This document shows, piece by piece, positions 2,253 to 20,716 of a DNA stretch of 64,000 nucleotides (positions are counted from its first letter, which is position 1; each line of letters begins with the position of its first letter). A model generated the notes under the pieces. The model was given only the letters and a program-made list of their open reading frames with translations. It was not told the origin of the DNA and made no database searches. The position numbers and the translations under genes were made by a program. Source of the DNA: Croceicoccus sp. Ery15. GTDB taxonomy: Bacteria > Pseudomonadota > Alphaproteobacteria > Sphingomonadales > Sphingomonadaceae. The stretch lies in NCBI RefSeq assembly GCF_020985305.1, contig NZ_CP087588.1, positions 310,001 through 374,000 on the forward strand, in the 5' to 3' direction.

Positions 2253-2285
2253 GGGTGCTCGCTTCGTCGAGCGCCCGTCCTTTTT
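2253..2285. terminator. Intrinsic terminator between convergent genes
   Basis: Stem GGGTGCTCG / CGAGCGCCC (one G-U pair) with a 6-base loop, then GTCC and five T. It lies between the + strand SDR stop and the stop of the minus-strand reductase gene. The T-tract favours termination of the + strand transcript. Confidence 0.75.
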
Positions 2286-3324
2286 ACGTGCGATTGCTGC
2301 GATCGAGAAAGCGGTCAGCCGAAATGGCCGAACGTGAGATGCCGGCGGCGAGCAATTGCGCTTCGGCAAAGTCGATCATCGCCGGTGGGCCACACAGATA
2401 GGCTTCGTGCGCCGCCAGATCTGCAACGCCCGCAATCTGCTCGGTGATCAGCCCACGCGCCCCTGCCCAGTCGCTGTCTGGCTCTTCATCCGACAAGGCC
2501 GGGACGAATTCGAAAGGGGCCATCCAGCGTTGACGAAGGGCCGCAATTTTGTCGAGGGCATAGAGATTGGACTGACGGCGCGCACCGTACAGCAGGTGCA
2601 CCGCCCGGTCTGCGCCCCGGTCAAGCGCCTGCTCCAGAATCGAGATAATCGGCGCTAGACCACTACCCCCGGCGATGCAAAGAATGGGGGCAGTGCTGTC
2701 CTTGAGAGCGAATTGCCCATAGGGGGCGGCAACCTTCAGCTCCATTCCGGTGCGATCGGTGCAGAACAGCCAGTCGGTAAATGCGCCGCCCGGAACGTGC
2801 CGGATGTGAAAATGCAGTTGCTGGGTGGGGCCGCCAACCGTCGCGAAGGCGAATGAATAACTGCGTGCACCTTCGATGCCGGGAGCGGTCAGATCAGCGT
2901 ATTGTCCGGGAGTGAAGGCCAGTGGCCGATCCAGTTCGATGGTCAGCCCGATGATATCCTCGCACAGCCGTTGTGCAGCGACGATGGTGCCGCGATATGT
3001 AGCAATGGCGATCCCTTGCGAGAGTGGCGCATCAACCGCGATTGTCAGATCCGAGCGCGGAATGGCCTGGCAGGCGAGGCGAAAGCCGCTGCGCAGTTCG
3101 TCGCCCTCAAGTGCAAGGGCCGACGGGCTCAATTCGCCGATCTTGCCAGACACGAGCTTGAACTTGCAGGTACCGCACGAGCCGACCTTGCAATCGTGCG
3201 GCATGGCCAAACCCGCGTCCAGCATCGCTTCAAGAAGTGTCTTGCCCGCCGGTATGTCTAGCGTGGTCGGCGATCCTTCCACGGTTACGGTGTTCATCTT
3301 GGATTTGCGCAGGAAAGAAAACAT
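2284..3324 (-). CDS. XylA-like monooxygenase electron-transfer reductase (2Fe-2S / FAD / NAD)
   Basis: A 346-residue reductase that passes electrons from NADH through FAD and a plant-type 2Fe-2S centre to a membrane hydroxylase. The N-terminal ferredoxin domain has cluster cysteines C45, C50, C53 and C85. The FAD-binding RSYSF motif is at 154-158 and the NAD domain has AGGSGLAP near 218-225. This domain order and length match XylA of xylene monooxygenase and related p-cymene monooxygenase reductases. It lies 82 bp downstream of a XylM-like hydroxylase on the same strand, so the pair should form one enzyme. A second in-frame ATG at 3297 is an alternative start. Because it carries its own ferredoxin domain, it need not serve the Rieske enzymes nearby. 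Confidence 0.9.
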   Translation of the reverse strand: MFSFLRKSKMNTVTVEGSPTTLDIPAGKTLLEAMLDAGLAMPHDCKVGSCGTCKFKLVSGKIGELSPSALALEGDELRSGFRLACQAIPRSDLTIAVDAPLSQGIAIATYRGTIVAAQRLCEDIIGLTIELDRPLAFTPGQYADLTAPGIEGARSYSFAFATVGGPTQQLHFHIRHVPGGAFTDWLFCTDRTGMELKVAAPYGQFALKDSTAPILCIAGGSGLAPIISILEQALDRGADRAVHLLYGARRQSNLYALDKIAALRQRWMAPFEFVPALSDEEPDSDWAGARGLITEQIAGVADLAAHEAYLCGPPAMIDFAEAQLLAAGISRSAISADRFLDRSNRT

Positions 3325-3406: not shown

Positions 3407-4477
3407 TCAAGTGCTGGCCAGCCAGCGCGGCCAACCAGCCTGTGCGTTGGCCTGATCCGCCAGCTTGCGTTCGCCGGGGGTGGCGAAACATTCGTCCCAG
3501 TCCTTGAGGCGCGGTTGCGCGATGAAGCGGAACCAGACCGGCGGGATCAGTCCGGCGGCGAAGCACAGGAACAGTGAGGGCATCTGCGGTGCCTGCGGTT
3601 CGGGCTTCAGCGCATAGAAGGGGATATGCCCGTCAAGGTGATGGTTGATGTGGTTTGTGATTTCCGCACCGATCGGCCGGACGATCGCTCCGAGATGGTT
3701 CCAGGCGTGATGGAGCTCGATCGGCGCCCCTTCGACCCGGATCAGGCCATAGTGCTGGAAATAATTGAACCCTTCCACGAACATCTTTGCCAAAAGCATG
3801 GCACCGATGGCAGTCAACGCAGCGGCAAGCCCCGCCGTCAGACCCACATAGGCGACAATGCCGCCCGAAAGCAGCGGAAACAACCACATCACATTCCGCC
3901 AACCGAGCCGAGGATGGCCCAGCTTGCCGAGGATTTCGACCGTCTTCTCCCATGAGTCCTTGTAAGAACCCCAGGTCGCCTGGAACACGAAGCTGTAGAT
4001 GGTCTGCCCGCGCCGAGGGGTATCGCTTTCCTTTGCCGTGTCGAGATGTACGTGGTGGGTGACGATATGGGCGATATCGCGATTGGGGTCGCCGTAGAAT
4101 GCACTCAGACACTTGGCGACATAGCGTGGAAACCAGTGGCGGCGGTGCATCAGCTCGTGCGCTACCGGCAGGGTCGGCACCGCCGAGAGCCAGCCCAGGC
4201 TGAGCAGCGATCCGGCCAGTTGCCAGCTTGAATTGTCGGCGCCGGTGATCGGGTTGATCGCGGTCGCAACCGATCGGGCAAAGGCCCAGACGAGCAGGAT
4301 CATCAGGGGCAGTTGCAGGTACATCGCGATGTCACCGAGCATGGCGGCGCCCTTCGCGCGGACTTTGTGATCGGGCGGCAGCAGCAGGTCCAGAGCCATT
4401 AGAACCGGGAATGTAGCCGCGCCCAGCCAGACGTAGCTACCGCCGAGCATGAATCCGATAACGCCCGCCAAGGTCAT
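3407..4477 (-). CDS. XylM/AlkB-like membrane hydroxylase subunit
   Basis: A 356-residue integral membrane di-iron hydroxylase of the fatty-acid desaturase/AlkB superfamily. It oxidises methyl groups of alkyl-aromatics or alkanes to alcohols. The histidine boxes are HELMH at 107-111, HIVTHH at 137-142 and NHINHH at 275-280, with FNYFQHYGL at 237-245. Hydrophobic segments occupy about 1-30, 45-70, 88-105 and 200-235. The length, histidine spacing and neighbouring XylA-type reductase favour xylene or p-cymene monooxygenase over alkane hydroxylase, which is longer and uses rubredoxin. The gene follows the receptor pseudogene on the same strand. Confidence 0.9.
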   Translation of the reverse strand: MTLAGVIGFMLGGSYVWLGAATFPVLMALDLLLPPDHKVRAKGAAMLGDIAMYLQLPLMILLVWAFARSVATAINPITGADNSSWQLAGSLLSLGWLSAVPTLPVAHELMHRRHWFPRYVAKCLSAFYGDPNRDIAHIVTHHVHLDTAKESDTPRRGQTIYSFVFQATWGSYKDSWEKTVEILGKLGHPRLGWRNVMWLFPLLSGGIVAYVGLTAGLAAALTAIGAMLLAKMFVEGFNYFQHYGLIRVEGAPIELHHAWNHLGAIVRPIGAEITNHINHHLDGHIPFYALKPEPQAPQMPSLFLCFAAGLIPPVWFRFIAQPRLKDWDECFATPGERKLADQANAQAGWPRWLAST

Positions 4478-4599: not shown

Positions 4600-7145
4600 T
4601 TAGTATTTGTAGGCGAGCTTCAGGAACCACTCGCGCGGACGCGAGAAGCTTGCGGTGGCGGCGCCGCCGATGTCGAGATCGACGTACCCGCCTTGGATGT
4701 ATCGTTTATCGGTCAAGTTGGTGACGCCGCCAGTCACGGTGAAGTGATCGCTCTTCTCGGTGAACGAAGCACTGGCGCCGAACACGCTATATGCTGGCTG
4801 AAACAATTGCGGGCTATTTACCGCATCCTTAAAGGTGTCGCTTTGATACGACCAGTCACCACGAAGCGTCAGTTTGCCGGCTTGCCCTTCATAGACATCC
4901 GCATTGATAGCTGCCGAAGCTGCCCATTTGGGTACGAAAGCAAATTTCGAATCCGTGGTGACGGGGGCGGCTGATAAGTCGATGTCGGTGTAATAGGCAT
5001 CCAGATAACCTACACCAAAGGTCAACTGAACCTGATCGATTGGAGCCGCTTCGCCCTCGACCTCAAATCCCTTGATCCGGCCGGCACCGGCGTTGCGAAC
5101 CTTCGGAGCGATCCCTTCGTTCACAGTGATCTGCATGTCGCTGTAATCGGAAAGGAACGCCGCGATGTTCAGGCGCAGGCGCCGGTTGAACAGTTCGTTC
5201 TTCAGGCCGATTTCGTAGGATTCGACGAATTCCGGCGTGAACGAGGGGGTCGCGATTTCAGCCGGGAAGATGCGCTGGCTGAACCCGCCGTTCTTGAAGC
5301 CTTTCGAATAGGACGCATAGATCAGCGAATTGTCGGTTATCTTGTAGTCCGCCGAGATCGCCGGGGTCCACTCCTTGGCCTTGGCCGAAACCTCGATGGC
5401 CGGCATCGTGTGGTTGCCGCCCGGGTTGGTCGCCGAAGGCGTGCAGTTCGGTAGCGGGAAACCGGCCAGCGGGCCTGACGGGAACAGGTTGGCCGCCGGG
5501 TTTGCCTGTCCGACGAGGCACTGGCTGAACGCGACGAATGCGCCCTGCGGATAGACCGATGCCAGCACTGGATCGAGTTGCGAGCGGTCGTTGAAGATCG
5601 TCTGCACAGACGGGTCGAACCGCTTGGTCTCGTTAGTGTAGCGGATGCCCGGCGTGATCGAGAACCGGTCGGTCAAATTGAAGGTGGCCTTCAGGTATGA
5701 GGCATAGCTGTCGTTGTCGATGTCGCCGCCACTAAAGAACTGGGCAAACCCGAATTCCATCGGGGTGTAGTCAGTGCCCTTTTCCTTGAGATAATAGCCG
5801 CCCAGAACGAACTTCACCCGGCCAGCCATCAGGCTTCCGGTAAACTGCAGTTCCTGCGAGGCCTGCCACACATCGATATCGCTCGCGATCCGCAGGATCG
5901 TATGCGGAGTGCCGTCGAAATCGTATTCCATGTGCGAAGTCTGGTCGCGGTAGGCCGAAATCGACTTCAGGCTGAAATCGCCGAAATCGTAATCGAGCGT
6001 GAGGTTGGTGCCCCATAGATCGAAGTCCGACCGGTTGACGCCGCCAGCCCAGGTGGTGTCGATGTCGCCAGTGATCCAGCGGGTGCTGGCGCAGGCCGGG
6101 TTGCCGGTCGGCGCAAGGGTACCCGGAACGCCAAACCCGCCCCAAGGTGCTCCGCAGCTGCCATCGGTGACGCGGATCTTGTTCCAAAAATACATCGAGC
6201 TGGGCGCGGCGATCTGGCGGTTGGTGCCCCCAGGGGGGCGCTGTTGGGAATCTCCACAAAACGCAACGGAACCGGCTGGTCTCGCAGTTCGATCAATGAG
6301 ATAGCCGTTTGTTCCTCGCGCCGGATATTGATATCCCCGCTCAGGTTGACGGTCAGCTTGTCGGTCGGCTCCCACTTGAACGCAATGCGTCCGCCGAAGC
6401 TGTCCTTGTTGCCCTGGCGGCCGCCGTCGAACAAACGCTTCTGGTAGCCGTCGCGGGTTTCATAGGAAGCAACCGCGCGCATTGCGAGAGTGTCGCTCAG
6501 CGGCACGTTGATTATGCCCTTGAAATCGGCGCGGTTGAACCGGCCGGTCGCCGCTTCGAGCTTCATGTCGAAATCGTACTGCGGTTCGACCGAATTGACG
6601 ACGATCGCGCCGCCGATGGTGTTCTTGCCGAACAGTGTGCCCTGCGGCCCGCGCAGGACCTGGACGCTCGCAATGTCGGCCATGTCGAGCAGCGCGCCAA
6701 CCGAGCGGGCGACATAGACGCCATCGACATAGACGCCCACGCCCGGGTCGACGGTGATATTGAAATCGGTCTGGCCCACGCCGCGGATGAACGAGGTGAT
6801 CGTGGCGCTGGAACCCGAGATGTTGGCAACCGGCGAGATGTTTACGTTCGGCGCGAATTTTGCGACTTCGGCCACGTTGGTGACCTGGCGTTCCTCGAGC
6901 ATTCCGCCGGTCAACGCGGTGATCGCGACCGGCGTTTCCTGCAGGTTCTCGGCCCGCTTGCGCGCAGTCACGATGATCTCTTCGAGGCCGCCGGTCTGTT
7001 GCTCCTCAGCCTGAGGCTCACTTGTTGCGGCGTCCTGCGCATGCGCCGCCATCGGTGCGAGCCCGATTGATCCGACGATCGCCGAGGCGCTGGTGCGCAG
7101 GACGACCTTCCGGAAATTGAACGATTGGTTTGTCATTGGCGTCAT
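4600..7145 (-). pseudogene. TonB-dependent outer-membrane receptor, frameshifted
   Basis: Two overlapping frames together encode about 848 residues of a TonB-dependent receptor of the kind that imports hydrophobic or aromatic compounds in sphingomonads. The first frame (from 7145) has a signal peptide ending near AHA-QD (residues 34-38), a TonB box region EEIIVTARKR and the plug domain. The second frame (ending at 4600) carries the beta-barrel and finishes in a typical C-terminal aromatic strand (FLKLAYKY). The frames switch in the homopolymers C5 (6227-6231) and G6 (6233-6238), so one base is missing or extra there. It could be a sequencing error or a real lesion. The ATG at 7136 is better spaced from AGGGAGA than the ATG at 7145. 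Confidence 0.85.
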
Positions 7146-7188: not shown

Positions 7189-7740
7189 CTAAACGTAGAT
7201 ATTCAGATTCTTGCTCAGCATCACGTTGTGCTTGAGGATCGCACGGCGTTTGACCAGTTGAAAGCTGTTGCCGACCTGGCGCCAGATATCGATACGGTTG
7301 CCGATCAGCGAATCCTCGTCGCGTTCGTTGCGATTGCGATAGGCATAGAAGTCCGAATAGACCCGGAACTCGTCGGCGTTTTCGGTAAGCTCCACCTCGA
7401 CGTTGGTGATGATATGGGTGCAGCGCGTCGCCGGATCCTCCGACCAGGCCGTTCCGGTCTCGAGCCGCGAAAGCCGCTTGAGGATTTCGGGCTTGCTGTC
7501 GTTGTAATAGGCCATCCGGGTCAGGTCGGTCACCTGATCGGTCTTGTCCCGGCGGTAGCGGGTTTCGATTCCCGGCATGTGGTAATGCAGGTCTTCCGCC
7601 AGCATCTCTGCCCAGTCGGCATAGTTCTCGGTGTCGAGCAGGCGCGCTTCGCGATAAAGCGTCTGGGCCAGCGCGTGGGTCAGTTCGAGCGATGCGGCAG
7701 TGCCTTGGCGTGTGCGCTCGAGGGTTGCGGTGTCGGTCAT
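7189..7740 (-). CDS. Rieske aromatic dioxygenase, beta subunit (pair 1)
   Basis: A 183-residue small subunit of a ring-hydroxylating oxygenase with the SnoaL/NTF2-like fold, needed to assemble the alpha3beta3 enzyme. Typical features are LYREARLLDTENYADWAEML near the N-terminus, the central TRCTHIITNVEVE and the final RRAILKHNVMLSKNLNIYV. AGAGGA precedes the ATG by 9 bp. It is 14 bp after its alpha subunit and 43 bp before the receptor gene, so it belongs to the long minus-strand unit. The substrate is unknown. Confidence 0.92.
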   Translation of the reverse strand: MTDTATLERTRQGTAASLELTHALAQTLYREARLLDTENYADWAEMLAEDLHYHMPGIETRYRRDKTDQVTDLTRMAYYNDSKPEILKRLSRLETGTAWSEDPATRCTHIITNVEVELTENADEFRVYSDFYAYRNRNERDEDSLIGNRIDIWRQVGNSFQLVKRRAILKHNVMLSKNLNIYV

Positions 7741-7754
7741 GGTTGTGATTCCTC

Positions 7755-9122
7755 TCAGAGCGCGAACAGGCCGGGCAGGTCGCGGGTTTCGGCCACGTTG
7801 CCAAGCCTCGGTTCGGGGCGTGTCGGCATCTTACCGAACTCGTCATGGGTCATCATGTCGAGCCAGCGCTGGTAGAAGCCGCGCTGGTTGGCGTCGTTGT
7901 ACTGGCCGCGATAGACGATGCCCGGCAGGGTATCATGTTCGATCTGGCGGCCGATGCCGCAGCGATAGTGCAGGCGCTCGTGCCTGGTGACGACTCCGCG
8001 GTTGACGGTGGTGCAGTTTTCCCAGTTCTCCCCGTCATCCATCTCGAAGGTGCCACCGGGGCCGAAGGTCTGCATGACGCCCTTGGTGACTTCTTCCTTG
8101 ATGTCATCAGGCATGTTCTTGTTGACGATCACCCAGGTCTTCAATTCGAACTGCATCGGTCCCTTGGGCTGCCATTGGCGGAAGGTGGAGATGCCGGGCA
8201 GGAACGAGACATTGGGGAAGATTGAGGCCGAGGCGACCGAGCCGAAGATCTTGGAGCGCATCTCGCCCAGGCGTTCAGCCATCTTGGGGCGGATCTTGTT
8301 GTAATAGTCCATGACCTTTGGACGGCCGAGCAGGACGAGATCGCCAACGCCCTCGGTGCCGAATTCCCAGCCGTGACCGTTCACGCTGGCATGATAGGAG
8401 TATTCCATGTCGATCGGCGGGAAGGGCATGCCATCGTTCATCGAACGGCAGCCGGAATCGTGCGTCCAGCCGGCGTGGTAAGCATCGCCGATGAAGTTCT
8501 CGACCCCGAACTTCCAGTTCGCGCTCATCACCGATTTGATGCAGCCGCCAATGAATTCGGTGCCGCCTTCCTCGTTGTCGAGGATCATGTCGAGATACCA
8601 GCGGAAATCGCCCAACCATGCCTCCAGGCTCGGCGCATCGCCGTTGAAGGTGGCGAACACCAGGCCCTTGTAGCTGCTGACCTTGGCGACGTTCTTGAGG
8701 CCATGGTTCTTGAAGTCGATATCGCCATTGTCGTAGCAATATTCCTCGTGCATGCCTTTGAGGTCGCCTGCGGTGTCAAAGGCCCAGCCGTGGTAATTGC
8801 AGACGAACCGACGAGTGTTGCCGGCATCGGCGAAGCAGACCTTGTTGCCGCGGTGCGGGCAGGAATTGAGCATGACCCGGATCGAACCATCGGCCTGACG
8901 CGCGACGATCACCGCGTCTTCGCCCATATGGGTGGTCAGGAAATCTCCGGCCTTGGGGATCTGGCTTTCGTGGGCGACGAACAGCCACGACCGGGCGAAG
9001 ATCCGGTAAAGCTCTTCCTCATAAATATCGGCGTCGGAAAAGATCCGCCGGTCGAGCCAGCCTTCCTTGAGGTCCATGTAGCGTGAATAATCCGGCTCGC
9101 GGCCGATCCGTTCGAAGCGCAT
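7755..9122 (-). CDS. Rieske aromatic dioxygenase, alpha subunit (pair 1)
   Basis: A 455-residue catalytic subunit of a ring-hydroxylating dioxygenase. The Rieske 2Fe-2S ligands are C88, H90, C108 and H111. The mononuclear iron site is in DAYHAGWTH, with D213, H216 and H221. The length is normal for naphthalene/biphenyl-type alpha subunits. GGGAGG lies 7 bp before the ATG. It is followed directly by its beta subunit and preceded by a second, related alpha/beta pair, so this cluster carries two parallel oxygenases. The sequence does not reveal the ring substrate. An electron-donor ferredoxin is not encoded nearby. Confidence 0.94.
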   Translation of the reverse strand: MRFERIGREPDYSRYMDLKEGWLDRRIFSDADIYEEELYRIFARSWLFVAHESQIPKAGDFLTTHMGEDAVIVARQADGSIRVMLNSCPHRGNKVCFADAGNTRRFVCNYHGWAFDTAGDLKGMHEEYCYDNGDIDFKNHGLKNVAKVSSYKGLVFATFNGDAPSLEAWLGDFRWYLDMILDNEEGGTEFIGGCIKSVMSANWKFGVENFIGDAYHAGWTHDSGCRSMNDGMPFPPIDMEYSYHASVNGHGWEFGTEGVGDLVLLGRPKVMDYYNKIRPKMAERLGEMRSKIFGSVASASIFPNVSFLPGISTFRQWQPKGPMQFELKTWVIVNKNMPDDIKEEVTKGVMQTFGPGGTFEMDDGENWENCTTVNRGVVTRHERLHYRCGIGRQIEHDTLPGIVYRGQYNDANQRGFYQRWLDMMTHDEFGKMPTRPEPRLGNVAETRDLPGLFAL

Positions 9123-9159: not shown

Positions 9160-9687
9160 TCAGAAGAAGGCGTTGAGATTGCTGTCGGGCAGCACGGAAT
9201 GGTCGAGCACGATGTCGCGCGCCGCGAGCAGCCAGGCCTGGCCTTCGCCGCGCCACAGGTCGGTGCGCGCGGCGGTGAGCACGCGGGTGGTGCCGTCGAT
9301 CCGGTTGCGGTGCATGATCAGCACCGAATGGACCCGCACCTCGTTCTCCGCAGGTCTGGCCACTACCTCGACGTTGGAGATGGCGCGGCGAATGAAGTTG
9401 GGCGGGTCTTCGGCCCAAACGAAGCCGGATTTCAAGCGATCCACCCGCAGCTTGAGACGGCCAAGATCCTCGTTGAAGATCACGCCCGGGCCGACCGGCA
9501 AGGGGGGCGAACGATCCGCACGAAACCGGCGGCTCTTCAATTCCATGCGATAGCAGATGTCTTCGTTCAGCATGGCCAGCCAGCCGTCGAAGTCTTCATT
9601 GTCGAGCAGCCGCGCCTCGCAGTGGAGCGCCTGGGTGACCGCGACGATTACCTCGACCGGGGGAGGCGACAGGGGCCGGTCAAGCAT
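9160..9687 (-). CDS. Rieske aromatic dioxygenase, beta subunit (pair 2)
   Basis: A 175-residue small subunit of the SnoaL-like fold, similar in plan to the beta subunit at 7189 (HCEARLLDNEDFDGWLAMLN near the N-terminus, ending SVLPDSNLNAFF). The ATG overlaps the end of its alpha gene by 8 bp and has AGGAGG six bases upstream, so translation is probably coupled. Its partner alpha gene is 5'-truncated, which leaves open whether this subunit is still produced. Confidence 0.92.
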   Translation of the reverse strand: MLDRPLSPPPVEVIVAVTQALHCEARLLDNEDFDGWLAMLNEDICYRMELKSRRFRADRSPPLPVGPGVIFNEDLGRLKLRVDRLKSGFVWAEDPPNFIRRAISNVEVVARPAENEVRVHSVLIMHRNRIDGTTRVLTAARTDLWRGEGQAWLLAARDIVLDHSVLPDSNLNAFF

Positions 9688-10945
9688 GTTCGGCCTCCTG
9701 CGCTGTCAGCGAGTTGATGTTGTAGGTGGGCACCTCGGCCCAGGTTTCCGCCATCATGTGCTCTTGCCAGCGGCGGTAGAAATAACGCTGGTTGTGTTCG
9801 CTCACCAGGCCGGCGGCGATATCGCCGGGCAAGCCCTCGCGCTTGCCCGAGCGGCCCAGCGCCATGTTGGTGTAGACATCCATTTGCGCCGTGCGCCAGC
9901 CGCGCGACTGTTCAGTGCAGGCGGTCAGATTGTCGCCATCGTCGTTGTCGAACAGGCCTGCCAGGCCGAAGGTCAGGCACTGATTTTCGAGGATCTGCGC
10001 TTTCACCGCCTCGGGCATGTCGTTTTCGGCCATGGCCCAGGTCCACTGCTCGATCTGCCCGGGACCCTTGGGATGATAGACCCGGAACCAGTTGAGGCCG
10101 GGCAGCAGTTGCAGGTTGGGGAAGATGGTAATGTTGACCTGCGCTCCCCAGACCTGCTTGCCACGCACCTCGCCCAAGCGGTCGATCACCGTCTGGCGGT
10201 TGGCTTCCAGGTATTCGAGGATCGGTTTGGGATCGGGATAGAAGGCATAGCCGGAAACGCCGTCGAGCGCGCTCAGGACCATGTGCCCGTTCATGCCGGC
10301 GACCGACAGTCCGCCATCAAGATCGACGCCCGAATTGCCGACGTTGAGCCCCGTGAGGTCCATGGACTGCACGGCTGACATCGCGCCGGCATGGGCCCAG
10401 CCAAGGTGATAGCCATCGCCGCAGACGTTCTCGACCGGCAGCTTCCAGTTGGTGCCTAGCACCATCTTCTGGGTTTCGCCGAGCAGCGCTGATCCGCCCG
10501 GCATGGCATCCAGCCAGACATCGAGGAAAAATTTGGCATCGCCCAGATAGTCTTCGAGGCTGGGCGAATTTGCGTCCCAGCAGCCGAAGACAAGACCCTT
10601 GTATTCGGACACTTTAGTCACGGGAACCAGCCCGAACTTGCTGCGGTCTAGCTTACCAAAATAGGCCTCGTTTTCCAGCGGAACCCCGGCGAGCGCCCCA
10701 TCGGGGGCAAACGACCAGCCGTGGTAGTTGCAGGTAAACGCCCTTGCGTTGCCGCGGTCGGCGCGGCAGACGCGGTTCCCGCGGTGGGTGCAACTGTTCA
10801 GGAACGCCTTGATCGACCCGTCCTTCTGGCGAATGACGATGACATCGTCTTCGCCCATGAACGTGCGGAAATAATCGCCTGTTTTGGGAATCTGGCTTGT
10901 ATGGACTAGAAACAGCCAGCAGCGTCCAAAGATCCGTTCCAGTTC
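9680..10945 (-). CDS. Rieske aromatic dioxygenase, alpha subunit (pair 2), 5'-truncated
   Basis: Catalytic alpha subunit with Rieske ligands in CTHRGN and CNYHGW and an iron site in GDGYHLGWAH. The first ATG in frame is at 10858, but recognisable homology (ELERIFGRCWLFLVHTSQIP) continues upstream without a start to 10945, where a TGA precedes it. Compared with the neighbouring alpha subunit about 36 residues are missing. The truncation point coincides with the truncated 5' end of the divergent sigma-54 regulator, so one deletion probably removed both starts and the promoter between them. A product initiated at 10858 would lack part of the Rieske-domain N-terminus and is probably inactive. Confidence 0.85.
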   Translation of the reverse strand, partial: ELERIFGRCWLFLVHTSQIPKTGDYFRTFMGEDDVIVIRQKDGSIKAFLNSCTHRGNRVCRADRGNARAFTCNYHGWSFAPDGALAGVPLENEAYFGKLDRSKFGLVPVTKVSEYKGLVFGCWDANSPSLEDYLGDAKFFLDVWLDAMPGGSALLGETQKMVLGTNWKLPVENVCGDGYHLGWAHAGAMSAVQSMDLTGLNVGNSGVDLDGGLSVAGMNGHMVLSALDGVSGYAFYPDPKPILEYLEANRQTVIDRLGEVRGKQVWGAQVNITIFPNLQLLPGLNWFRVYHPKGPGQIEQWTWAMAENDMPEAVKAQILENQCLTFGLAGLFDNDDGDNLTACTEQSRGWRTAQMDVYTNMALGRSGKREGLPGDIAAGLVSEHNQRYFYRRWQEHMMAETWAEVPTYNINSLTAQEAEHA

Positions 10946-10954
10946 TCACCCGAG

Positions 10955-12544
10955 ATGGGCCGCATCTGGCGCGATGGCGAGCGTTGCGTCTTGCTAAGCA
11001 ATTCTGCCCTTGCCGGGCTTCGGGGACACATGGTTTCCCAGTTAGGACTGGACGCGGCCAGCAAGTTCTTCTGGGAGCTCGGCTTTGCCGAAGGTGCGCG
11101 GTGTGCAGTCGGCGCGAAGGAACTACGACCCGATCGAGACTTTCTCGATGCATTTGCCGTAGGACCCCAGGCCCATGCTTTGACCGGTTTTGGCTGGACC
11201 CAGATCGAAGCGCTCGAAAACGACAAGTCCCGCGGACACTTCGAAGGACGGTTCCTGGTCCACGATTCAATCGAAGCCGCCATTCACCTCAACGCCGAAG
11301 GCCGCGCCACCGATCCGGTCTGCTGGATGCAGACTGGCTTTGCCAGCGGTTTTGCCACTGCATTTGCCGGCCAGCCGATCATCATGCGCGAACTGGAGTG
11401 TGCCGGTATGGGCGATGCGGCATGTCTGCTGCATGCCAAGCCAGCCATGGAATGGTCACACCTTGACAGCCCGGAAAAATCGGCCTTGCCGCTGGAACCG
11501 CCGGTCCTGGATTCCGGCGAAAACAGCATGGCCGTTGGCGTATCGGCTGGCTTCATTGCCGTGAAGACGATGATCGAGCGATCGGCGCCAAGCGACGCAA
11601 CCTTGTTATTCACGGGAGAAACCGGGGTCGGCAAGGAGGTGCTGGCGAAATTCGCGCATCGCTTGAGCCGGCGGAAGGAAGCTCCTTTTGTCGCGCTCAA
11701 TTGCGCCGCCATTCCTGAAGGGTTGATCGAATCCGAGCTTTTTGGCGTGGCCAAAGGCGCTTTCACCGGGGCCGTGGCTGCGCGACCGGGTCGCTTCGAA
11801 CTTGCCCATGGTGGGACGCTCTTCCTCGATGAGATATCCACTCTCTCGCCTCTGGCCCAAAGCAAGATCCTGCGTGTGATCCAGGAAGGCGAATTCGAGC
11901 GTGTCGGCGACACGCGAACCATTAAGGTGGATGTTCGCCTGATGGCCGCTGCCAACGCCGATCTGACTCAGTCGATGCGCGATGGCCTGTTTCGCGCCGA
12001 CCTGTTCTACCAGATTTCGACCTTGCCGATTTGGGTGCCGCCGCTGCGCCAGCGCCGCGAAGACATACCCGGGCTGATCGAGCATTTCCGTTTTCGTTTC
12101 TCGCGTCGTCACCAACGCGCGGTAGCTGGGTTCACCACGAGGGCGATCAATGCCTTGCTGGTCTACGATTACCCCGGCAACGTGCGCGAACTCGAGCGAA
12201 TGGTGGAGCGGGCGGTGTTGCTCGCCGATGATGGGCAGGCGATCGACCTCCGGCATCTGTTTCTGGGTAACGATTTACCCGATCTAAAGCCGGCCATGGG
12301 ATTGGCTAGTGACGGCAAGATTATGCCTGTTACCGATATCCATGATCGTTCGGAGTTGATTCGCCAGGTGCTCGATTTGATTGTCGAGGGTGGCGAAACT
12401 CTGTCGAACGTGGAGGGCCTCGTCATCCGGGAGGCGGTGGAAGCCTCGGGCGGAAATTTTGCGCGAGCCGCCCGTACTTTGGGGCTGTCGCGTCGTCAGT
12501 TGGCGTTGAGAATGGAAAAGATCGGACCCACTGGCCGGACATAG
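10955..12544 (+). CDS. XylR/DmpR-type sigma-54-dependent activator, N-terminally shortened
   Basis: Enhancer-binding activator of aromatic catabolic operons. Domains in order are the XylR N-terminal effector domain with a V4R segment (about 1-165), the AAA+ domain with Walker A GETGVGKE at 221-228, the sigma-54 contact GAFTGA at 268-273 and Walker B GTLFLDE at 287-293, and a Fis-type helix-turn-helix near 495-522. Homology begins at FSPEMGRIW, in frame from 10943, where relatives have about 25-30 further residues. The 5' end is therefore lost at the same junction as the divergent Rieske alpha gene. ATG 10955 is the only nearby start and lacks a clear ribosome site. Loss of the extreme N-terminus may alter effector control. 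Confidence 0.88.
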   Translation: MGRIWRDGERCVLLSNSALAGLRGHMVSQLGLDAASKFFWELGFAEGARCAVGAKELRPDRDFLDAFAVGPQAHALTGFGWTQIEALENDKSRGHFEGRFLVHDSIEAAIHLNAEGRATDPVCWMQTGFASGFATAFAGQPIIMRELECAGMGDAACLLHAKPAMEWSHLDSPEKSALPLEPPVLDSGENSMAVGVSAGFIAVKTMIERSAPSDATLLFTGETGVGKEVLAKFAHRLSRRKEAPFVALNCAAIPEGLIESELFGVAKGAFTGAVAARPGRFELAHGGTLFLDEISTLSPLAQSKILRVIQEGEFERVGDTRTIKVDVRLMAAANADLTQSMRDGLFRADLFYQISTLPIWVPPLRQRREDIPGLIEHFRFRFSRRHQRAVAGFTTRAINALLVYDYPGNVRELERMVERAVLLADDGQAIDLRHLFLGNDLPDLKPAMGLASDGKIMPVTDIHDRSELIRQVLDLIVEGGETLSNVEGLVIREAVEASGGNFARAARTLGLSRRQLALRMEKIGPTGRT

Positions 12545-12556
12545 CGCAATCACACA

Positions 12557-12583
12557 TTTGCAACGCATTACATAATGTGCAAA
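12557..12583. promoter_or_regulatory. Nested inverted repeat upstream of ferredoxin reductase gene
   Basis: TTTGCA (12557-12562) and TGCAAA (12578-12583) flank an inner CATTA-CA-TAATG palindrome in the 107 bp between the regulator stop and the reductase start. The core GCAACGCATTACA resembles GCAATGCGTTACA at 14787. It may be an operator. No convincing -24/-12 sigma-54 promoter is visible. Confidence 0.45.
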
Positions 12584-12651: not shown

Positions 12652-13878
12652 ATGAAATCGATAGCCGTGGTCGGAGCAAATCTTGCGGGTGGCCGCGCGG
12701 TGGAGTCCTTGCGCCAGGCTGGCTTTGATGGCCGGATCACCCTGATCGGCGAGGAACCCTGGCGTCCCTACGAGCGCCCGCCGCTGTCCAAGGAAGTGTT
12801 GTGGGATCCGGCCAACGTACCGGACAACTTCTTCCTCCACGATGAAGCATGGTACGCGGACAACCGTATCGACATGCGGCTCGGGGTGCGGGCAGAAGCG
12901 CTCGATCTGACCGCAGGCGGCGTCCGCCTGGGCGGAGGCGAACTGGTCCAGGCAGATCGCATACTCCTCGCGACCGGCGGCTCGGCGCGCAAGCTCAACA
13001 TGGAGGGCACCGATGCCGCCAACGTGCATTATTTGCGCACCCGCGACGATGCCACGCGAATGGCGGCGGATCTCAAGGATGGGGCCCGCATCGTCATAAT
13101 CGGCATGGGCGTGATCGGCGCGGAAGTGGCGGCCAGCGCGATCAAGTTGGGCTGCCGGGTGACGGCGATCGAGCCGTTCGCGGCGCCGATGATCCGGGCG
13201 CTCGGGCCGCAATTTGGACAATGGTTGGGCAATGAACATCACCAGCGCGGCGTCGATACCCGCTTCGGACGCGGCGTGAACGCGATGAGAGTCCTAGATG
13301 GTCGGGTGACTCAGGTCGAACTCGACGACGGGTCGCTGGTGGATTGCGATGCCGTTGTGGTCGGGGTCGGCATCGTGCCGGAAACCAGCCTTGCCAAGGA
13401 CGCAGGCATCGTCACCAATAACGGCATTATCGTCGATAGGCAGTGCCGCACCAGCAATGAGAATGTCTTTGCCGCCGGCGACGTCGCCGAACAGGACAGC
13501 TTCTTCGGCGGTCATATCCGCCAGGAAACCTACCAGAACGCTGCCGACCAGGCCCAGGCAGCAGCGCTCGCGATGCTCGGGCAGGACGTCGATTACTGCA
13601 AGCCGGCTTGGTACTGGAGCGATCAGTTCGATCTCAACATCCAGTTCTGCGGCCATATCCCGGCGCAAGCCGAGGTAACCCTGCGCGGAGACATGGCAAG
13701 CAACCAGTTTACCGCATTCTTCCGGTCAGGCGAGACGATCGAGGGCATCCTGACTGTCAACCGCGCCCCGGACATGGGCATCGGCAAACGGCTGATAGAG
13801 CGCCGGGCCAAGGCGTCGGCCGGGCAGCTGGCCGATGCCGATGTGTCGCTCCGCGAAATCCTCAAGCAGGCTGGTTAG
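12652..13878 (+). CDS. Ferredoxin-NAD(+) reductase for ring-hydroxylating oxygenases
   Basis: A 408-residue FAD flavoprotein of the BphA4/ferredoxin reductase family that moves electrons from NADH to a Rieske or 2Fe-2S ferredoxin. Evidence includes an N-terminal dinucleotide fold (VVGANLAGGRAVESLR), PYERPPLSK near 43-51, a second NAD fold (IIGMGVIGAEVAASA, about residues 147-161) and the FAD-contact FAAGDVAE near 275. The C-terminal reductase domain is complete. GGGAGA lies 5 bp before the ATG. It follows the sigma-54 regulator and converges on a diol dehydrogenase gene. It probably serves the local Rieske oxygenases, although their ferredoxin is missing from the window. Confidence 0.9.
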   Translation: MKSIAVVGANLAGGRAVESLRQAGFDGRITLIGEEPWRPYERPPLSKEVLWDPANVPDNFFLHDEAWYADNRIDMRLGVRAEALDLTAGGVRLGGGELVQADRILLATGGSARKLNMEGTDAANVHYLRTRDDATRMAADLKDGARIVIIGMGVIGAEVAASAIKLGCRVTAIEPFAAPMIRALGPQFGQWLGNEHHQRGVDTRFGRGVNAMRVLDGRVTQVELDDGSLVDCDAVVVGVGIVPETSLAKDAGIVTNNGIIVDRQCRTSNENVFAAGDVAEQDSFFGGHIRQETYQNAADQAQAAALAMLGQDVDYCKPAWYWSDQFDLNIQFCGHIPAQAEVTLRGDMASNQFTAFFRSGETIEGILTVNRAPDMGIGKRLIERRAKASAGQLADADVSLREILKQAG

Positions 13879-17764: not shown

Positions 17765-18399
17765 TCTTTGGTTCCGTCGGGCAGGATGCCGAGCGCGATG
17801 TAGACCGCCTTGTTGCGAACGAAGCCTTCGTCGCGAACCTTCACGCGGATCGCGTCGAAGAACACCAGAGGATAGCAATCATCGAGCGGCCGGCCCTGCC
17901 ATTCGGTCACCGTTTCCAGCACGGCGTCGGTGATCGTGGAGATCAGATCCGGCGCACGTTAATGCCGTACAGCTCTTCCAGGTGCCCCCGGATCTCACGC
18001 ACCGTCATGCCGCGTGCGTACATCGAGATGATCTTCGTATCGAAGTCCGGGAAGTGGCGCTGATACTCGGCGATCAGCTTGGGATCGAATGTACCCGAAC
18101 GGTCGCGCGGAATATCCAGCGTCACTTTCGACGTGCCGGTCAGCATCGTCTTCTTCGAGCTGCCGTTGCGCCGATTGGCGACGCCGGCCTCCGCTTCCGA
18201 TTCGAGATGATCGTCCAGTTCTGCCGTCAGCATCCGTTCCGACAGTGCCTTCTTCAACTCGTCAATCAGTCCGTCCCGGGCGAATAACTCTTGCGGGTCA
18301 CGTCCGTCCAGCTGGTCCAGTAACTCCTTGTCGATTGCCATATCGATGGTCCTTTCCATTCCATCTATATGACCTCGCGCACAAAATTACTGACAGTCC
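17765..18399 (-). mobile_element. IS256-family remnant with broken transposase
   Basis: The N-terminal half of an IS256 mutator-type transposase lies on the minus strand in two frames: 17943-18359 (138 codons, ending ELYGINVRRI) and 17704-17922 (starting LETVTEWQGRPLDDCYPLVF). A frameshift near 17930 separates them. Homology ends at GILPDGTKE, so the DDE catalytic half is gone. The outer tip CTGACAGTCCCC near 18391-18402 matches the end of the other IS256 copy. The 70 bp between 17697 and 17765 belong to neither this IS nor the amidohydrolase. Confidence 0.8.
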
Positions 18400-18655
18400 C
18401 CGACCGGAACGCCGGCACGCTTGCCGCTGTTCACCTCGGCCTTCTTCACCCACTCCAGCAGCGTGTGACCCGAGCAGTCAATCATGGCCGCTATGGATGT
18501 GATCGCTGCCCAACGGGAGGGATGCTCGCTCTCTTGATCCAGCGCCAGGCGAACAGCCCGTTCACGCACCTCAGGTGAAAACTTGTTCGTTGTCTTGCTC
18601 ATCGTAGACCCTTCCTCTCAGGAGTTAGGGCCTCCGGCAATCCCGGGGCGGTTCA
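18400..18655 (-). mobile_element. IS3-family remnant (OrfA N-terminus)
   Basis: A 71-codon frame on the minus strand (18387-18602) begins [20 protein letters not shown], a typical IS3 OrfA helix-turn-helix domain. It is cut near NSGKRAGVP by the IS256 remnant. The upstream sequence to TGAACCGCCCC (tip at about 18655) is the IS3 terminal repeat. Only one end of the element survives. Confidence 0.75.
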
Positions 18656-18657
18656 AG

Positions 18658-18917
18658 AACGTATGGCCCGCCCCGTCTGCAAGGACTATTTTGAGGCTGG
18701 CAACTGACTGGTCTGCATCAACGTATACGGCATATCAGCGTTGCGCTGTCGCCAAGATGGAGCTTCGCACGCTCTGAACCTCATAATGGGGGTGGCAGCA
18801 AAGTGCCGTTCTTGGTACCAGGCTTTCAGGGCGTCGATTTACCGTCAGGCCATCTTCAAAATTCCTCCCGCAGACATCGTGGTCACACAACCGGTCGAGG
18901 ACCGGTGACCAGGATAC
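18658..18917 (-). ncRNA. Candidate bridge RNA region of IS110 element A
   Basis: 260 bp without a gene, 3' of the transposase. It shares conserved blocks with the corresponding part of element B (20471-20716): CGTATGGCCCGCCCC with GTCTGCAAGG, GGTCTGCATCAACGTAT, GCCAAGATGG and ACCAGGCTTTC. The sequences between these blocks differ. IS110-family elements are known to encode a bridge RNA with a conserved scaffold and variable guide loops, and in IS1111-type elements it lies at this end. The exact RNA ends are not determined. Confidence 0.5.
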
Positions 18918-19949
18918 TCAGATCGGCATTGCAGCACGGTCGATCGACAACGTGTCTCCGCGACGCAGTGTGACCCAAGCGATCCGGGCCAGCTTGTTGG
19001 CCAGTGCCACCGTCACCGTGTTGTAGTGGCATCTGGCAAGCAGGCCGAGCAGCCAGCTCCCCAGCGGCGTCTCGCTCTTGGCAAGCGATGGCAGTGCAGC
19101 TCTTGCACCATGGATCAAAAGGGTTCGCAGGTACCTGTTTCCGCGTTTGCTTATTCCTCGAATCTTCGGTTTCCCGCCTGTCGTGTATTGCTTCGGTACC
19201 AAGCCCAGCCAAGCGCTGAGATCACGGCTCCGTTCAAAGGTCGACGCATCTCCGACTGCGGCTGCCAGGGCTGTCGCATTGAGCGAACCGATCCCTGGGA
19301 TCGTCAAAAGCCTGCGCGCCAGTTCATCGGTTCGGGTGAGTTCTAGAAACTCCATATCAAGCGCCGCGATCCTGTCGTCCAGCGTCTTCCACTCCTCGCG
19401 TGTTTCCATCATGAACCGACGGATCCGACCCTCGGGAAGACGATCCGTATCGGCTAGCATCGCATCGAGTGCCCTCTCGAACTTCTGGCGGCCTTGGGGC
19501 GCTACGATCCCGCGTTCCATTAGGATCGCTCGCGCCTGATTTATCAGGTTCGTACGCGCTCCCACGAGCTGCGACCGCACGCGATGGAGCGACTGAACAT
19601 CGAGCTGATCCTGGGTCTTCATCTCGACGAACCGCATGGTCGGTCGCGTTGCGGCTTCCGCGATCGCCTCTGCGTCGCGATCATCGTTCTTTTGCGCCTT
19701 TACGTAGGGACGGACATATTCCGGCGACATCAACCAGACGGTATGGCCTTGAGCCGCCAGCAACCGACCCAGATGATGCGCCCCGCAACAGGCCTCCATC
19801 GCGATCACGCATGGCGCCAGCTTCGCTGTGAAGCCTGGAATTGTGGACGGGCGCATGCGTCTGCTCAGCACGACTTTGCCAGTCGTATCAAGCCCGGCAG
19901 CACTGCAGCTGTTCTTGCCCAGATCGACTCCAAGTGTACAAATAGTCAT
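18918..19949 (-). CDS. IS110-family transposase (element A)
   Basis: A 343-residue DEDD recombinase. The N-terminal RuvC-like domain begins TLGVDLGKNSCSAAGLD and includes AMEACCGAHH and NDDRDAEAIAEA. The C-terminal Tnp_20 part has LLTIPGIGSLNATALAAAVGD and GISKRGNRYLRTLLIHGAR. It is full length and apparently intact. It catalyses guide-RNA-directed insertion of the element. Confidence 0.93.
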   Translation of the reverse strand: MTICTLGVDLGKNSCSAAGLDTTGKVVLSRRMRPSTIPGFTAKLAPCVIAMEACCGAHHLGRLLAAQGHTVWLMSPEYVRPYVKAQKNDDRDAEAIAEAATRPTMRFVEMKTQDQLDVQSLHRVRSQLVGARTNLINQARAILMERGIVAPQGRQKFERALDAMLADTDRLPEGRIRRFMMETREEWKTLDDRIAALDMEFLELTRTDELARRLLTIPGIGSLNATALAAAVGDASTFERSRDLSAWLGLVPKQYTTGGKPKIRGISKRGNRYLRTLLIHGARAALPSLAKSETPLGSWLLGLLARCHYNTVTVALANKLARIAWVTLRRGDTLSIDRAAMPI

Positions 19950-20470: not shown

Positions 20471-20716
20471 AACGTATGGCCCGCCCCGTCTGCAAGGGTA
20501 AAATTGGATGGCGTAGTGGGTCTGCATCAACGTATCCGGTCTCAGGTCTGCTGACCTGGCCAAGATGGGTTCCGCGCGGCAGGAGCTTCATAAAGCCATC
20601 GGTGACAAGCACCACATTTTTAACCAGGCTTTCCCGTCCGCCGGTTCGACCGTTATGCCATCTATCTCACCTCCACAGACATTCTGAGCGCCCAGCCTCG
20701 ACTGACCGCAATTCCG
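20471..20716 (-). ncRNA. Candidate bridge RNA region of IS110 element B
   Basis: 246 bp 3' of the transposase, sharing the conserved blocks listed for element A with divergent sequence between them. The pattern of fixed scaffold and variable segments fits a bridge RNA. RNA ends and guide loops were not folded. Confidence 0.5.

Follow-up and report, generated by a model that had tools for sequence, protein, structure and literature searches.

Among the closest described counterparts of the locus analysed here is the bphA/bphR cluster of plasmid pNL1 from Novosphingobium aromaticivorans F199, with the gene order reductase, activator, alpha1/beta1 and alpha2/beta2 oxygenase pairs, receptor, XylM and XylA. 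It has been suggested that the pNL1 genes are regulated by way of BphR and sigma-54 promoters (PMC4048848, citing earlier work), and the same article describes bphR/ahdR as truncated or transposon-interrupted in three degraders of polycyclic aromatic hydrocarbons (PAH), Sphingomonas sp. P2, N. pentaromativorans US6-1 and Sphingobium sp. PNB, the lesion in PNB being a transposase insertion; it calls the role of BphR/AhdR in sphingomonads unclear. Here, we describe a cluster of this gene order in Croceicoccus sp. Ery15, in a 64,000-nucleotide stretch (NZ_CP087588.1, positions 310,001 to 374,000; hereafter the window) of its 3.63-Mb single-contig genome. A Rieske oxygenase alpha1 gene on the minus strand (9680-10945) and a XylR/DmpR-type sigma-54 activator gene on the plus strand (10943-12544), a BphR/AhdR homologue, are both truncated at the 5' end and meet head to head with zero DNA between them. 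Our results show that this fusion arose by loss of 343 bp between direct repeats of 9 bp, one in the 5' end of each gene. The deletion removed both starts, and with them the one strong sigma-54 promoter-like site that the unit had. Very probably it arose once, after which the deleted cluster spread horizontally, and the unit would now be uninducible and mostly relict.

The nearest intact allele found belongs to Novosphingobium marinum DSM 29043, which was among the closest alpha1 matches (98% protein identity) in the best 80 of 152 loci of a scan of the genome_contigs collection, from which 79 distinct loci were kept. In this strain alpha1 and the activator gene are divergent, and their DNA is 97% identical to that of the window on the side of the activator, with 93-94% on that of the oxygenase. 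Unlike the window, N. marinum has the 343 bp in place, a receptor in one frame and an arginine at activator residue 372. The two alignments between the window and N. marinum share nine window bases, 10938-10946, which read TCCAGTTCT; N. marinum has two perfect copies of this 9-bp sequence 343 bp apart, one in each gene, and the window has a single copy, which marks the junction. The two flanks account for the junction wholly, with no insertion sequence and no foreign DNA, and both states that define a deletion between short direct repeats are at hand, an ancestral form with both repeats and a product with one copy minus the rest.

Among 200,000 random deletions of 200-600 bp simulated in the N. 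marinum sequence, junction homology of at least 9 bp arose in 0.0105%, and N. marinum is the only one of 24 intact loci compared base by base to have the perfect repeat at both places. Since other direct repeats of 8-11 bp are also present in the N. marinum stretch searched, the 9-bp repeat suffices for such an event without being the only possible site. The change would have been a single deletion on an N. marinum-like allele, produced by slipped pairing or short-homology repair between the repeats. Inversion or translocation of the missing pieces was considered and rejected, as no relocated copy was found in the genome of the window: 393 bp of N. marinum DNA spanning the deleted stretch gave a good match only over the 59 bp kept at the junction, and the next best match covered 39 bp (E 0.027).

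An error of assembly or sequencing in a single genome is extremely improbable as the source of the fusion. The junction is identical in Croceicoccus pelagius Ery9 and Novosphingobium sp. PC22D; the same junction 19-mer occurs once in each stretch examined of the three separate assemblies, and the alignment is continuous across it, which refutes such an error unless the assemblies have raw data in common. The presence of the short head-to-head form in three genomes could also mean that this form is ancestral and that the promoter region was inserted in relatives, to which we give next to no credence. The long form was found in all other loci measured, in several genera and down to about 76% alpha1 identity, with 336-354 bp between the homology end points in 31/31 (24 in a first set and seven measured later), a number larger than that of independent lineages because many of these loci are near-identical alleles; 30 of them also have the core of a -24/-12 promoter-like site, and all short forms seen belong to the DNA of a single allele (99% identical). 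The initial annotation, which had proposed comparison with full-length homologues and intact clusters, had named the same arrangement in several strains as evidence against a deletion. That arrangement does occur in two further genomes, but not as an ancestral short form: because the junction is identical in 99%-identical DNA, Ery9 and PC22D inherited or received the same deletion.

The alpha1 frame is open from codon 10943-10945, immediately after a TGA (10946-10948), and meets no ATG before 10858; homology of the activator begins at about 10938-10943 and its first in-frame ATG is at 10955. These positions agree with the earlier placement of both homology ends at codon 10943-10945, behind the TGA on the minus strand, and with the absence of intergenic DNA. 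The sizes of the loss needed correction. Compared with N. marinum, alpha1 lacks 29 residues (34 counting from an upstream ATG), close to the 36 or so first estimated, and the activator lacks 13 coded residues (19 if translation starts at ATG 10955) and not 25-30. Both Rieske and Ring_hydroxyl_A domains are detected in alpha1, of which the nearest solved chain by sequence is biphenyl 2,3-dioxygenase (2gbw). ATG 10858 corresponds to residue 30 of the remnant; since the Rieske match starts at remnant residue 10, a protein starting at this ATG would be without the beginning of the Rieske domain, and alpha1 has no complete Rieske domain that could be translated from an ATG. Likewise, the activator has no complete N-terminus with a start of its own, its XylR_N match running from position 6 here vs position 1 in N. 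marinum.

The lost stretch carries TTGGCACGAAATGTGCT, a -24/-12 promoter-like site on the oxygenase strand that faces the oxygenase genes and falls within the most clearly conserved island of the aligned non-coding DNA. Its core, TGGCA-N8-GC, is present in 23/24 intact loci (2.2% in shuffles) and in 7/7 of the further ones. The strict -24/-12 pattern, defined after the sites had been seen, matches once in the 19.9-kb N. marinum locus and once in 21 kb of pNL1, which unlike the window keeps the divergent intergenic region with its site, and has no match in 60.5 kb of the region of the window. The core having been deleted, no cognate -24/-12 promoter adjoins the activator gene in the window, and a crude scan of 10700-11700 found no sigma-70-like promoter. 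The initial proposal that one deletion took both 5' ends together with the promoter region is therefore borne out by the intact allele, the repeat, the 343-bp length and the lost site.

The activator has the full XylR/DmpR-type set of domains (XylR_N, V4R, Sigma54_activat and HTH_8), like the XylR_N, V4R, AAA+ and Fis domains of the DmpR/MopR/XylR activators, and its nearest solved relative by sequence is the DmpR-type regulator 6iy8 (CapR in that entry). Unlike those activators, the window protein is without its first 19 residues when counted from the first ATG, and its RxDxxxR motif is altered. In a by-eye alignment, the cut presumably extends up to about residue 26 of DmpR. In DmpR, the sensor dimer that restrains the ATPase is reported to be interlocked by residues 18-45 (PMC7264223), and, since the first ATG of the activator is 19 residues in, the cut probably removes part of the matching arm.

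The second lesion is in the ATPase domain. Codon 372 in the numbering of the intact protein (12011-12013, plus strand) specifies glutamine in place of the arginine that ends the RxDxxxR motif (residues 366-372), which reads RADLFYQ in the window and is thus not intact. Arginine is found at this residue in all 120 homologues compared (the best 120 of 1298) and in N. marinum, and glutamine in the deletion lineage, the activator of PC22D being identical to that of the window and Ery9 having no differences there. Residue 372 corresponds to R168 of PspF by motif position, backed by alignment to solved chains, and substitutions of R168 drastically reduce ATPase activity and leave a residual sigma-54 interaction that is not productive (PMC3419264). 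A search of four genomes, three of them drafts, found no second XylR_N activator that might act in trans. Relaxed selection on the activator was also considered: eight nonsynonymous and five synonymous codon differences separate it from N. marinum, but the branch counts of amino-acid changes are equal (four vs four).

Loss of the same sigma-54 activator links the window to strains P2, US6-1 and PNB; in the window the lesion is a clean short-repeat deletion which took both starts along with the promoter. A tblastn search of 15 kb of US6-1 plasmid pLA1 found only two decayed activator pieces, residues 293-343 and 435-544, and no oxygenase-XylMA unit adjoins these at an identity of 50% or above. 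On both this plasmid and that of C. naphthovorans PQ-2, the slot between hcaB and the reductase gene holds only these pieces, without Walker A (240-247) and without RxDxxxR (366-372), and the reductase gene is kept. In PQ-2, deletion of the sigma-54 regulator gene ardR (AB433_RS18080) lowered phenanthrene degradation and the transcripts of three genes, and supplying ardR in trans relieved the defect in degradation and brought one of the three transcripts partly back (PMC7432010). By tag order ardR should be located in this slot, between RS18075 and RS18085, but its own tag is absent from the gene table, which omits pseudogenes, so that the placement is our inference; at this place on PQ-2 plasmid p1 (NZ_CP011771.1, about 95382-96279; L173:14097-14994) the deposited DNA has only the decayed bphR remnant. 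The PQ-2 remnant may act without an ATPase core. The ardR effect can also be read as polarity on the downstream reductase gene, and complementation speaks against polarity as the whole cause. The case is a caution against calling every broken copy silent.

The distribution of the deleted allele points to horizontal movement. The cluster of Ery9 matches that of the window at 99.3% identity (10.6 kb) and that of PC22D at 99.5% (13.3 kb), PC22D sharing a block of 37.8 kb at 99.1%, but a 4-kb segment of the rpoB region is only 89% identical to the window in Ery9, 85% in PC22D and 86-88% in N. marinum. This contrast indicates that the deleted allele moved horizontally and, taken together with the identical junction, that the deletion is older than the spread of the cluster. 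Once deleted, the cluster would have been transferred in a block that, judged from PC22D, measured 38 kb or more, and at least three species carry it. Within the genus, Ery9 is the only carrier besides the window among 14 genomes. An activator at 68% identity or more occurs in five of 397 genomes of the family, two with the deletion (the window and Ery9) and three intact. Related clusters are carried by conjugative plasmids, and the deleted form was not found on plasmids, the five records covering most of the query, among the best 20 of 413, being all long-form.

In Ery9 and PC22D one A is lost from a run of five (window 10527-10531), which puts alpha1 in two frames; the window keeps the full run and its alpha1 is otherwise open. 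At 631 sites of 9160-12560 where PC22D equals N. marinum and differs from pNL1, the window is of N. marinum type at 594, of pNL1 type at 36 and of neither at one, and all 36 fall in three patches inside alpha1: a recombination tract at 9821-10085 (within which sites 9914 and 10058 are of N. marinum type), 10247-10307 by the same allele comparison, and a short patch at 10535-10544 (clear sites 10538 and 10544, with 10535 fitting too) within a few bases of the A run. A search of four genomes for a pNL1-type copy that could have served as donor found none. In this comparison of three genomes, either recombination mended an ancestral alpha1 frameshift or the window never had one.

It is, in our view, unlikely that the deletion rewired the unit, with a dead or irrelevant activator and low constitutive expression by read-through, which would account for the spread and for the open alpha1 of the window. 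The horizontal spread of the deleted allele, the open alpha2, beta2, XylM and XylA frames and the pNL1-type patch beside the frameshift site are as this explanation predicts, and so might be a cut into the arm through which DmpR residues 18-45 restrain the ATPase via the sensor dimer (PMC7264223). However, the crude scan gave no sigma-70-like promoter to drive such expression, receptor and activator carry further damaging changes, the patches together cover about one quarter of alpha1 so that nearness to the frameshift could be chance, and the spread of the allele could be hitchhiking with a large mobile block. A bolder version, which we consider a long shot, is that the unit spreads because uncoupled expression, whether low and constitutive or silent, pays once it is freed from the sigma-54 switch, that in the lineage of the window recombination with a pNL1-type copy removed or prevented the alpha1 frameshift, and that the shortened oxygenase is still useful, perhaps from a non-ATG start behind the junction GGGTGA.

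The reading that we infer from the sequences is that the unit, itself largely relict, has escaped from control by BphR and sigma-54. The deletion cost the seven-gene unit both translation starts and its only strong sigma-54 promoter-like site, and with the promoter gone and the activator doubly damaged the unit should no longer respond to aromatics. The alpha1 protein is unlikely to be made as a working subunit, the activator is predicted to be inactive, and the alpha2/beta2 pair and XylMA could, at best, still be made by read-through. Silence of the unit is favoured by the further lesions, namely the split receptor, R372Q and the alpha1 frameshift in two relatives. Several points weigh against this reading. 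The alpha1 frame of the window, otherwise open and with a pNL1-type patch beside the site of its relatives' frameshift, is what selection to keep alpha1 predicts, and the alpha2, beta2, XylM and XylA frames are still open. The amino-acid changes of the activator are split evenly, four on the window branch and four on that of N. marinum, and weak promoters would escape a promoter pattern drawn up after the fact. In other sphingomonads PAH degradation goes on despite a truncated activator gene (PMC4048848), and deletion of ardR in PQ-2, a decayed relative by our placement, had an effect that was relieved in trans (PMC7432010).

The mutation is of a known kind in a known kind of cluster, and is of moderate interest for its resolved ancestry and its spread as a broken allele. 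Novelty is modest because truncated bphR/ahdR genes are already in print, and titles and abstract openings of the literature searched did not name this deletion. It is a clean added example of the recurrent loss of BphR/AhdR in sphingomonads. Near-ancestor, repeat, product and subsequent events are all resolved here for a catabolic operon that would have lost its inducible promoter in one step and then travelled broken between species. Oxygenase genes in a genome annotation do not equal an inducible pathway.

The remaining genes of the unit follow alpha1 on the minus strand: beta subunit 1 (9160-9687, Pfam), an open frame for Rieske alpha subunit 2 (7755-9122, open reading frame list and Pfam), beta subunit 2 (7189-7740, Pfam), a TonB-dependent receptor (4600-7145), a XylM-like membrane hydroxylase (3407-4477; FA_desaturase domain, annotated as alkane 1-monooxygenase in pNL1) and a XylA-like 2Fe-2S/FAD reductase (2284-3324; Pfam and comparison with pNL1). 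Downstream of the activator, on the plus strand, is a gene for an FAD-dependent ferredoxin reductase (12652-13878, Pfam). XylM, XylA, alpha2, both beta subunits and this reductase all have open frames in the window. DNA identity to pNL1 is 87-89% when each side is taken whole; the activator gene is more diverged, with 434 of 1574 bases different. The receptor is a single frame of 882 codons in N. marinum and is split in the window and PC22D over two overlapping frames, with barrel and plug apart. It is annotated in two pieces in pNL1 as well (L108:3421-5976) and is one frame in N. olei (867 codons).

Some minor features of the surrounding DNA were also observed. In the reductase gene, seven substitutions, all from G/C to A/T, fall within the 30 bp of 13212-13241; six are found only in the window among the loci compared, that at 13212 is common to two loci (L010 and L018), and no donor for the cluster was found in the four genomes. 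Positions 500-2500 (aldehyde dehydrogenase and hcaB) have 182 differences from PC22D in 2 kb within an otherwise near-identical block and form a separate recombination tract. After the catabolic cluster, 17943-19949 holds a Mutator-family transposase fragment (138 amino acids) and an IS110-family transposase, and the Ery9 match to the window is interrupted at 20472 and picked up again at about 21.8 kb. A second Rieske alpha gene (genome positions 247873-249078; 43% identity to alpha1) is located about 72 kb from alpha1 (319683-320945) in the genome of the window, and likewise in PC22D and N. marinum, which suggests a much larger shared catabolic block.

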